NCBI GenBank assembly: GCA_938021675.1
Contig: CALIFY010000023.1
Location: forward strand, 1-64,000
Origin: an uncultured Acidimicrobiales bacterium
GTDB taxonomy: Bacteria > Actinomycetota > Acidimicrobiia > Acidimicrobiales > SZUA-35
Direction of reading: 5' to 3'
DNA length: 64,000 nt
The notes under the pieces were generated by a model. That model was given only the letters and a program-made list of their open reading frames with translations, was not told the DNA's origin and searched no databases. The position numbers and the translations under genes were made by a program. Below, piece by piece: positions 35,688-38,542 of this stretch. Within the stretch, counting starts at the first letter, position 1, and each line of letters starts with the position of its first letter.

Positions 35688-37385
35688 TTAAACGCCCATG
35701 ACCCTGATCCGGTGCCAGCCACTGGCTCCGTCTGGTGCCGGTGGCGCAAAATCAGGGGTTTGAGTTTCGCCGCTCTCGTCGGTGGCTCGTACCTCGACGA
35801 TGTGCTGTCCTTCGGTAGCTTCCCACCCGACGACCCACTGACGCCAAGCGTCTGGACCGAGTGACTCTCCAAGGTCGGCCTCCATCCAATCGTTCTCGTC
35901 GATTCGAACTTCGACCTTGGCAATTCCGGTACTCGGAGCCCAGGCGACACCGGCGATGGCCAGCTCCGAACCGGCCTCAATCTGCTGACCGTTTCCTGGC
36001 GTGTCGATCCTGGACTGCGTCTTGACCGGACCGAGTTTCGACCAACCTCGGGGGATCCAGTAGCCGTCGAAGTCGTCCAAGGTAGTCAGCTCGATCTCGG
36101 CCAACCATTTCGTTGCCGACACGTATCCGTACAGGCCAGACACCACGAGTCGGGCCGGAAATCCGTGCTTTAGGGGCAACGGTTCGTCGTTCATGCCTAC
36201 CGCAACCAACGCCGTCCGCCCGTCAAAGGCCGCCTCGGTCGGGAACCCACAACTCCATCCGTCGACTGACCGACTGGCGATCTGGGTCGCCTCGGGCTTC
36301 ACGCCGGCCTCTTCTAGAAGGTCGACGAGCGGGACACCCCGCCAGATGGCATTACCGACGAGGTCGCCACCGACCTCATTGGAGACACAGGACAACGTGA
36401 CGGGGGCGATGGTGTCGGAGCGGTCGAGTAGTTCGTCGTAGGTGTACGTCGTCTCGTTGTCGACCAGTCCGCGGATGGTTAGCGACCAGTTGTTCGGATC
36501 GACCTGGGGAGTGGTGAGGGCCGTATCGATTAGATAGAAATCGTTGCTAGGAACGACGAGCGGAGTGATGCCCGGGGTCGATCCCACCGGTCCGGAAGCG
36601 GCTCGGCTGACAACGGTCTCGATTTCGGTCGATGCAGAATCAGCCGTCGTGGCGGTGAAGTCGATGGCGTCCCTGGCTTGAGCGGCCGATGAGCGAGACC
36701 GGATTTGTCGCGATCCGACGGCGGCGACGGCGACGGTGGCGCCGACGACGCCGGCCCAATTGAGGAACGAACGGCGGGACACCGGCGGGTCGGCAGGGGA
36801 CGGCACCGTCGAGGTGGAGTTCGTTGGTGGCCGCAAGCCGCTCTGTACCGTGGCTTCGCCGACATTGGCTGCAATGAGGAGGCGTAACGCCCCGATACCG
36901 GCCGCCACTGCGACGGTGGAGACGACGATGGCGGCGATCCAACTGCCCTGAGCGTCGGTGCCGATAGCGATGAGCCCGACCAAGCCAAAGGCAGCGATCC
37001 CGCCCATGCCGATCGCTGCTCGGCGACGAGATGCCACACCGAGCGCCGTGCCGAACACCAGCGACACGATGATGGTGCCGAGCACCAAGGCCGGCTTGTC
37101 GGCAAGACCGAACACCGATTTTCCGAACTCGACGAACCACTGAGGGGCGAGATCGATAACCCGATTTGCCACGCCTATGACTGGGCCGGGAACTGGAGCG
37201 GCCAACGATCCTGCTAGTTCGCCGGCAGCCAGCGCAGAACCGGCAGCGAGCAACCCGGCGACCGCGCTCTGACCCAATCCGGGTCGATCGGTGGCCGATG
37301 CCGCGCCGCTGTTCGGCTCGCCGTTTTCTGGCGCGTTTTCTGGTGAATCGTTGGGTGCGTCGTTGGGTGGTTGTGTCGTCGTCAT
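35688..37385 (-). CDS. membrane-anchored sulfite-oxidase-family molybdoenzyme
   Basis: 565 residues. Residues 50-175 contain about five hydrophobic segments; a Tat-like SRRSFLNW lies inside the chain at about 205. The catalytic part (about 275-460) has the Mo-ligand Cys in TLSCVSNEVGG, RGVPLVDLLEEAGV and GFPARLVV followed by GYVSATKWLAEIEL. The last 100 residues are an Ig-like dimerisation domain. It should sit with the catalytic part outside the membrane. It needs Mo cofactor from genes such as moeA/moaA/moaC upstream. The substrate is unknown. Confidence 0.88.
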   Translation of the reverse strand: MTTTQPPNDAPNDSPENAPENGEPNSGAASATDRPGLGQSAVAGLLAAGSALAAGELAGSLAAPVPGPVIGVANRVIDLAPQWFVEFGKSVFGLADKPALVLGTIIVSLVFGTALGVASRRRAAIGMGGIAAFGLVGLIAIGTDAQGSWIAAIVVSTVAVAAGIGALRLLIAANVGEATVQSGLRPPTNSTSTVPSPADPPVSRRSFLNWAGVVGATVAVAAVGSRQIRSRSSAAQARDAIDFTATTADSASTEIETVVSRAASGPVGSTPGITPLVVPSNDFYLIDTALTTPQVDPNNWSLTIRGLVDNETTYTYDELLDRSDTIAPVTLSCVSNEVGGDLVGNAIWRGVPLVDLLEEAGVKPEATQIASRSVDGWSCGFPTEAAFDGRTALVAVGMNDEPLPLKHGFPARLVVSGLYGYVSATKWLAEIELTTLDDFDGYWIPRGWSKLGPVKTQSRIDTPGNGQQIEAGSELAIAGVAWAPSTGIAKVEVRIDENDWMEADLGESLGPDAWRQWVVGWEATEGQHIVEVRATDESGETQTPDFAPPAPDGASGWHRIRVMGV

Positions 37386-37570: not shown

Positions 37571-38218
37571 ATGCGTGAATCCCCTCCAACGTCGCGCCGC
37601 CCTAGAGGCGCTCCCAAACTACCGGCCGTACTCGTCGCCAGTTCGCTTCTGGCCGCCGCTTGCGGCGCCGCCTCGGACACAGCTGCTGGTGATATCGACG
37701 AGGCCGCTCAGACCTCCGAAACCGAGGTGACCGAAGCAGCCGGGCCGGCGCCGCCGGAATCAGCTGAGGCCGCACCGGACTCAACCGCTGAGGCAGCTGT
37801 CGAAGAGCACCTCTTTCCCGATCTTGACACGGTGAAGGTCAGCGATGGCTCCACCCTCAACCTGGCGACGGAGTTGGCTGGCGGCGACAAACCAGTTCTG
37901 TTTTGGTTTTACGCTCCGCATTGACCGGTTTGCCACGCCGAAGCACCGGTGGTTGAGCAGTTTGCTCAAATGTACAAAGACGATGTTCGAGTCGTCGGCA
38001 TGGGGACTCAAGATGATCTTGGCCTGGCCGAGGACTTCCTGGATCGGCATAATCCAGATTCGGTCCTGATGACCTGGGACGAATCCTTCGCAACATGGGA
38101 CTATTACGAGGTCCGGGGTCAACCGACCACCATCTTGGTCGATCCATCCGGCCGCCCGCTTGGACAGTGGGTTGGCCTCGACAACGAGATCGTTTCGATT
38201 CTCGACTCTCAGTTCTGA
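37571..38218 (+). CDS. TlpA/thioredoxin-fold lipoprotein with in-frame UGA at the catalytic Cys: probable selenoprotein
   Basis: 215 residues reading the UGA at 37922-37924 as selenocysteine (residue 118). Signal and lipobox: PAVLVASSLLAAAC. After an acidic Ala/Glu linker the redoxin domain starts near residue 80. The active site reads WFYAPH-U-PVCHAEAP; homologues have Cys at the U position (WCPVC). The same frame stays open after it for 98 codons with family hallmarks: VVGMGTQDD, and the cis-Pro site GQPTTILVDP. An ordinary stop mutation or error is the alternative. It is divergent from the molybdoenzyme. The UGA is at the first, nucleophilic position, where Sec would raise reactivity. I cannot see the Sec machinery in this window. 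Confidence 0.8.
37924..37950 (+). promoter_or_regulatory. candidate bacterial SECIS hairpin
   Basis: Directly 3' of the UGA, ACCGGT (37924-37929) pairs with ACCGGT (37945-37950), with an inner GC/GC pair and a two-U bulge on the 5' side. The apical loop is about 9 bases. Position and bulge suit a bacterial SECIS; the loop lacks a G at the first two positions, unlike the E. coli type, and ACCGGT is a common palindrome. Confidence 0.4.
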
Positions 38219-38344
38219 GAGGCGGTGTAGCTCGGCTCGGCGACGACTAGTTGAGGACAGCGTTCTTCGGCTAGCGTCGCGACCGAGCGTACCGGAGGCC
38301 GACACGGCGGTGAGGGCCAGCATCGAATGAATCGGAGGAGCAGT

Positions 38345-38542
38345 ATGAAGATAGTTGTGGACTTCGACTTGTGTGAAAGCAATGCGGTGTGCATGGCCAT
38401 CGCTCCGACCGTTTTCGAGGTGCGTGACGACGACTTCCTGTACGTGCTCGACGAACACCCCGGTCCCGAGCTGCATGAGCGGGTGAGACAGGCGGCTGAA
38501 CGCTGCCCGAAGCAGGCCATCGCGCTACAAGTCGAGGAGTGA
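38345..38542 (+). CDS. small [3Fe-4S]-type ferredoxin
   Basis: 65 residues; ATG at 38345 has GGAGG about 6 bases upstream. MKIVVDFDLCESNAVCMAIAP, with Cys-x5-Cys, then TVFEVRDDDF, and the late RCPKQAI give three Cys of a [3Fe-4S] ferredoxin, as used with cytochromes P450 in actinobacteria. No P450 is in this window. Electron donor role is inferred. Confidence 0.88.
   Translation: MKIVVDFDLCESNAVCMAIAPTVFEVRDDDFLYVLDEHPGPELHERVRQAAERCPKQAIALQVEE

Follow-up and report, generated by a model that had tools for sequence, protein, structure and literature searches.

The gene at positions 37571 to 38218 of the window (the whole stretch of DNA analysed, 64,000 nucleotides) very probably encodes a TlpA-like protein in which an internal TGA codon is read as selenocysteine (Sec). 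The probability assigned to this reading is roughly 0.93, a figure that covers a TlpA-like Sec protein and excludes its role. We infer Sec insertion from comparative evidence that is about as strong as sequence permits.

An in-frame UGA at the first active-site position

When TGA was taken as a residue, translation of the frame 37571–38218 gave 216 positions with two TGAs, one at position 118 and one at the terminal position 216 (38216–38218). The initial annotation had placed a single in-frame TGA at the first cysteine of a thioredoxin-fold CxxC motif, and this was borne out by the read-through translation: the context is WFYAPH-U-PVCHAEAP, with Cys121 as the partner in a UxxC motif. The GQPT motif was found intact downstream of the UGA, as had been stated, and from family knowledge we take its Pro185 to be the cis-proline position. 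The frame also continues as proposed, for 97 sense codons and a stop; the 98 further codons originally counted include that stop. The predicted gene and protein are laid out as follows.

37571–38218, + strand: predicted selenoprotein gene, 215 residues with Sec118 and a TGA end (translation; homologues sharing the TGA)
37571–37663, + strand: putative lipoprotein signal up to Cys31 (LLAAAC), read by eye and recurring in homologues
37664–37825, + strand: low-complexity linker (Ala, Glu, Ser, Thr, Pro), with an AlphaFold pLDDT of 57–69 up to residue 80
37826–38215, + strand: TlpA/ResA/MPT53-like thioredoxin-fold domain, residues 86–215 (AlphaFold pLDDT, Foldseek, Pfam)
37922–37924, + strand: UGA codon predicted to be read as selenocysteine, first UxxC position (conservation; Cys in the 4 of 80 loci without UGA)
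37931–37933, + strand: second active-site cysteine, Cys121, invariant in the 30-row alignment A1
38123–38125, + strand: Pro185, presumed cis-proline position, nearly invariant in A1

The basis for the earlier designation as a lipoprotein is a signal-like N terminus that ends at Cys31, recurs in homologues and was recognised by eye. The encoded protein is probably exported and lipid-anchored.

The assignment as TlpA-like was backed by Pfam, by a sequence search of the PDB and by a fold search. In Pfam, the read-through protein scored 38.9 with Redoxin (cut-off 26.6), 34.9 with Thioredoxin_8 (27) and 33 with AhpC-TSA (26); Thioredoxin, Thioredoxin_2 and TraF were above cut-off as well. The nearest solved sequences are those of Mycobacterium tuberculosis DsbF and MPT53, whose Cys aligns with the UGA. 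An AlphaFold model, computed from 30 rows with Cys replacing Sec, had a pLDDT of 93–98 per ten residues over residues 86–215 and of 87 at the very end. Foldseek returned 1lu4, 3ios, ResA and CcmG at the top (E 5.6e-12 to 4.6e-10). No model of NCBIfam release 20.0 claims the protein, the scores for DsbE (TIGR00385; 37.2, cut-off 123.15) and ResA (NF002854; 32.8, cut-off 170) being below threshold.

TGA occupies the identical codon in the own locus and in all 29 relatives' loci fetched, which together form the 30-row alignment. A scan of public genomes with this alignment gave 148 confirmed loci, the best 80 of which were named; these derive mostly from Acidimicrobiia MAGs, plus Ilumatobacter nonamiensis, and many of their genomes overlap with the 148-genome search described next. 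Among these 80 loci, alignment at the position-118 codon, which the initial annotation had suggested inspecting for Cys, showed TGA in 76 and Cys (TGC) in the remaining four (L078, L091, L093 and L126). When the read-through protein was searched against 148 genomes (own included), 139 had a match with an E value no higher than 0.001. Matches 1 to 36 of that list, the own one being first, carried exactly one TGA each, and the 37th (G099) carried none. Among 296 genomes drawn across the phylum, 15 (own included) matched at E 1e-20 or better; in 13 of them a TGA lay within the listed match, its position being verified for part of them. A tree of 118 rows (17 of them Cys, some representing one gene fetched twice) required seven changes between Sec and Cys; it contains long outlier rows and gives no direction of change.

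If the TGA were a true stop, the locus would be a pseudogene or give a product of 117 residues. TGA does serve as a normal stop in the own genome, where it ends the selenoprotein gene itself and three of the eight neighbouring genes counted. Such a reading is very unlikely nevertheless, as TGA and a conserved downstream half occur together in the 76 loci and as Cys121, Glu124, Gly143 and Trp169, all located 3' of the UGA, are invariant across the 30 rows; the Sec machinery found in the genome (see below) also speaks against it. The original argument that a random stop would hardly hit this codon and leave the downstream half conserved is thereby sustained. An error of sequencing or assembly, with TGA written in place of a true Cys codon, might be considered for a draft genome in 99 contigs, but independent assemblies share the TGA codon, including that of Ilumatobacter nonamiensis YM16-303, which has it at the corresponding codon of two loci (L074 and L120) and whose record bears no metagenome-assembly mark. 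Strain YM16-303 is presumably a cultured isolate. Together with the hairpin that accompanies the TGA downstream, these assemblies reduce the probability of an error to a negligible level. Where the UGA is overlooked, such genes appear as two fragments or as a pseudogene, and ordinary annotation would shorten the protein.

A conserved RNA hairpin downstream of the UGA

Two short hairpins were predicted downstream of the UGA.

37936–37951, + strand: RNA hairpin I, CGCCG-AAGCAC-CGGUG (predicted fold)
37953–37969, + strand: RNA hairpin II, UUGAGC-AGUUU-GCUCAA, proposed SECIS core (covariation and synonymous-codon test)

Hairpin II, which starts 28 nt past the UGA and has a UGA-to-loop distance of 34 nt, is maintained by selection at the RNA level. 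Covariation was analysed in an alignment of 82 distinct UGA sequences, made without five identical duplicates and without the TGA-carrying locus L071. In total 97.0% of the cells were paired (93.1% in shuffles), four of the six pairs had changes on both sides, and there were 22 doubly changed cells; none of 500 shuffles was as high. Controls slid along the alignment were 18–44% paired. In one pair, the third position of a Val/Leu/Ile codon is matched with the second position of an Arg/Gln codon five codons later: C was found with Arg in 60 sequences and U with Gln in 18 or with Glu in one, while three were mixed (Fisher 2e-15 on 60, 2, 1 and 19, with related sequences treated as independent). 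On a quick tree, in which the Arg/Gln column was retained and the three mixed-pair rows were omitted, this CG/UA pair switched seven times, five of the switches being forced by supported branches; kinship alone therefore does not produce the pattern. Compensated variants were seen in L069 (GCAC..GTGC, where Glu and Ala are replaced by Ala and Val) and in L101 (CAGC..GCTG).

Codon choice pointed in the same direction. The Ala codon within the hairpin is GCT in 80 of the 82 sequences. Taken over six other genes of the window and both halves of the selenoprotein gene, eight coding stretches in all, GCT makes up 16% of the Ala codons. In a control applied to all 82 sequences, the protein was kept fixed and codons were drawn at window usage. 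Hairpin II equalled or exceeded the stability of 95% of these synonymous draws in 75 sequences, and none of 100 draws was as stable as the hairpin in the window. For hairpin I the same level was reached in 59 sequences, with the window at 7%, and a downstream control stretch passed in a single one. Across the 82 distinct sequences some amino acids seem to be dictated by the RNA signal that directs Sec insertion, in that the EQFA stretch and the choice between Arg and Gln appear to follow hairpin II.

At the six paired positions of hairpin II, all UGA rows had five (15 rows) or six (67 rows) pairs, and the nine Cys stretches scored (eight distinct) had one to three. Three of the latter (L165, L166 and L170) are more distant homologues; the Cys copies L161 (whose stretch is shared with L093), L163, L164 and L134 stood outside this scoring. 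RNAalifold detected hairpin II alone in 30 sequences, and the register of hairpin I was seen by eye to shift between homologues.

The model of bacterial SECIS elements (bSECIS) demands a G at loop position one or two, a loop of 3–9 nt, a stem of 4–16 bp, a spacing of 16–37 nt and a minimum free energy (MFE) of at most -7.5 kcal/mol (PMC13188914). Hairpin II lies within these limits for loop (AGUUU, with G second), stem (6–7 bp) and spacing (34–35 nt); if a predicted A-U pair is counted, the loop becomes GUU with G first. Its MFE was -7.4 kcal/mol when folded alone (25 nt; z -3.10 relative to dinucleotide shuffles), which narrowly misses the energy limit, and -14.4 kcal/mol together with hairpin I (37 nt; z -2.88). 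Longer folds were no better than dinucleotide shuffles, with z -0.85 for 51 nt and z -0.44 for 61 nt around the UGA, and a single structure across those 61 nt was dropped on the latter value in favour of the two short hairpins. Rfam gave no match to a SECIS family at the UGA region.

A search of the own genome with the hairpin model yielded 23 matches at E up to 10, with three TlpA-like loci on top and only weak matches below. When three of the next four matches (L174, L175 and L177) were read, open frames around a TGA were present in L175 only, and these encode no recognisable protein. The genome contains two further TlpA-like genes with one TGA each, C61:19024–19449 and C43:71710–72120 (L132 and L133; motifs APW-U-TSC and GAH-U-GIC), and one stop-free TlpA-like gene (C7:62808–63137). 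By eye, no common partner was recognised among the neighbours of the own genome's other two UGA genes (L157 and L158) and of five homologue loci (L072, L074, L092, L105 and L120).

Variations on this arrangement were observed in relatives. Six loci (L151–L156) carry two TGAs each in the motif WFWAPW-U-P[FHV]-U, so that both active-site positions are UGA; a diselenide is possible in the UxxU proteins predicted from them. In the five of these loci whose DNA was read, a different downstream hairpin with a GGUC loop was seen by eye. UxxU motifs have already been reported in Prx-like families (PMC2398784 and PMC13188914). Further, L079, L092, L105, L110 and L125 each have two UGA-bearing TlpA-like genes in tandem, the distance between the two UGAs being about 600 bases.

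Selenocysteine machinery and its co-occurrence with the TGA

The own genome is a draft of 4.45 Mb in 99 contigs and is 95% complete. A search for selA, selB, selC (tRNA-Sec) and selD, which had been named at the outset as a check and whose absence would have refuted the Sec reading, found all four. The tRNA-Sec scored 67.3 bits (cut-off 47) and has the anticodon TCA; a second match above cut-off in the same family search is a tRNA-Ser according to ARAGORN. On contig C28, selA (402.9; cut-off 267.9) adjoins selB (266; cut-off 242.25), the latter being a frame of 601 aa. The selD gene (L018, contig C65:22154–23071; 373.2, cut-off 125) has an in-frame TGA inside the catalytic GAG-U-GCK motif and probably encodes a selenoprotein itself.

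Co-occurrence was assessed in those 83 of the 148 genomes that have homologues among the matches listed. At least one TGA homologue is listed for 70 genomes, the own one among them, and every one of these possesses selA, as do five of the 13 whose listed homologues are all stop-free (Fisher p 3e-8, with related genomes treated as independent). Two of the eight genomes that lack selA (G031 and G099) are 55% and 77% complete. Since five selA-carrying genomes list only stop-free homologues, Sec is not obligatory. Two genomes of the window's own family, both without selA, carry Cys at the site (APHCPTC and APHCGTC).

These data also bear on the idea that the TGA is decoded without Sec, by a reassigned code or by near-cognate read-through. 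No support for such decoding was found; the non-TGA loci examined have Cys at the position, TGA terminates genes too, and the listed TGA homologues are confined to genomes with selA. We regard it as even less probable than a true stop. Insertion of Sec would proceed as follows: SelB carrying Sec-tRNA would bind hairpin II as the ribosome reaches the UGA and insert Sec118, and translation would then continue to the TGA at 38216.

Gene neighbourhood, possible role and related systems

Two neighbouring genes recur at orthologous loci.

35688–37385, - strand: sulfite-oxidase-family molybdoenzyme with Tat-like signal, divergent neighbour (PF00174, 140.7 bits)
38345–38542, + strand: single-cluster 4Fe-4S ferredoxin of 65 aa, downstream neighbour (PF13370, 46.3 bits; domain scan started at 38342)

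The N-terminal part of the molybdoenzyme is hydrophobic and matches TAT_signal at 20.2, below the cut-off of 22.7; its closest solved structures are sulfite dehydrogenases. The divergent molybdoenzyme gene adjoins the selenoprotein gene in 19 of 22 testable loci of close orthologues (L051–L073, a cut chosen once the neighbours were seen; L071 begins too near to be tested). At the loci of more distant homologues (L074–L130) this molybdoenzyme neighbour was not seen, and L085 alone has any such neighbours (ferredoxin, NUDIX). We know of no function for the arrangement of molybdoenzyme and selenoprotein genes. Of the 23 loci of close orthologues, 17 have the ferredoxin gene further downstream, in one case at just 44% identity; some contigs in this count stop before that point. 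A gene for a short-chain dehydrogenase (about 251 residues) lies directly 3' of the selenoprotein gene in eight of ten orthologue loci read; it is absent from the window (38219–38341), L051 and L064. Inspection of ten orthologue loci by eye revealed no CcdA/DsbD gene between the selenoprotein gene and the ferredoxin gene.

The gene product appears to be a TlpA/MPT53-like thioredoxin-fold oxidoreductase with a selenocysteine nucleophile (UxxC), and the fold family suggests catalysis by Sec118 and Cys121. After export the protein would act outside the membrane, where Sec118 and Cys121 would cycle between the selenol-thiol and the selenenylsulfide state, electrons being exchanged with a partner that is a disulfide or is oxidised in some other way. 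A role in reduction or repair is somewhat favoured. That the protein is instead an oxidase, a disulfide isomerase or a peroxidase seems doubtful, even though sequence and fold searches alike rank M. tuberculosis DsbF and MPT53 first among solved proteins, 1lu4 is titled a disulfide oxidoreductase in the PDB, and the Pfam matches include Redoxin and AhpC-TSA. With regard to electron routes, a donor of the DsbD/CcdA type (PF02683) had no match in the own draft genome while being found in 10 of 14 control genomes, which favours a non-reductase; a VKOR-type oxidant (PF07884) likewise had no match there (3 of 14 control genomes), which speaks against an oxidase. Both absences are soft because the genome is 95% complete. 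Against a peroxidase stands the motif UxxC, as opposed to the TxxU given for Sec-peroxiredoxins in PMC13188914.

The own genome also gave a COX1 match of 516.8 bits, so that oxygen respiration is likely, as judged from this one gene. The selenoprotein would place an exported selenol in probably oxygen-respiring bacteria. A far-reaching and rather improbable extension would be that the extracytoplasmic thiol-redox network of this lineage is largely selenium-based, operating without DsbD/CcdA or VKOR through several exported UxxC/UxxU TlpA-like lipoproteins per genome, at times encoded in tandem, with the selenoprotein working together with the neighbouring molybdoenzyme. If this were true, sulfite, S-sulfonates and oxidised thiols would be examples of what the two proteins might handle on the cell surface. 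According to a 2026 review, aerobic bacteria rarely keep selenoproteins (PMC13188914), and a 2016 survey classed 40.4% of Sec users as aerobic (PMC5029168). If its hosts are aerobic, the present family would fit the survey rather than the review. The homologues in Ilumatobacter nonamiensis YM16-303 make the claim of Sec insertion testable.

Selenoproteins of this kind have been catalogued before. PMC1088965 and PMC13188914 list TlpA-like, Prx-like and Redoxin selenoproteins with UxxC, mostly as predictions, and PMC1794560 counts Actinobacteria among the selenoprotein-rich phyla, with 12 families. Judged by title, searches of the open-licence literature gave no report of selenoproteins in Acidimicrobiia or Ilumatobacter. 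The spread of predicted UxxC TlpA-like selenoproteins in Acidimicrobiia was not found in print by these searches, while the kind of protein itself is already catalogued.

Among solved proteins, MPT53 (1lu4) and DsbF (3ios) share the fold and are closest by both sequence and structure, at about 26% identity over the domain, but have CxxC in place of UxxC. ResA, CcmG/DsbE and TlpA have a thioredoxin fold as well (TMt 0.6–0.8 to the AlphaFold model) and differ in the same way by their CxxC motif. The Rcas_1661 (seleno)lipoprotein family (NF041057) is by name also thioredoxin-like; the Sec protein is not a member, as it scored 13.8 bits and the cut-off is 190. The 'Prx-like thiol:disulfide oxidoreductase' (PF00578; UxxC and UxxU) and the 'Redoxin family protein' (PF08534; UxxC) listed in PMC13188914 have their Pfam families and UxxC in common with the Sec protein, as far as their descriptions go. 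Another counterpart by description is the 'thiol-disulfide isomerase-like protein' (cd02966, UxxC) from the Sargasso Sea (PMC1088965; table in PMC13188914), which is likewise a sequence-based prediction with a TlpA-like domain and Sec first in UxxC. That protein was represented by four marine shotgun sequences, whereas the predicted Sec protein described here is the product of one among many such genes in Acidimicrobiales and some other Actinomycetota, is apparently lipid-anchored and has a described hairpin.
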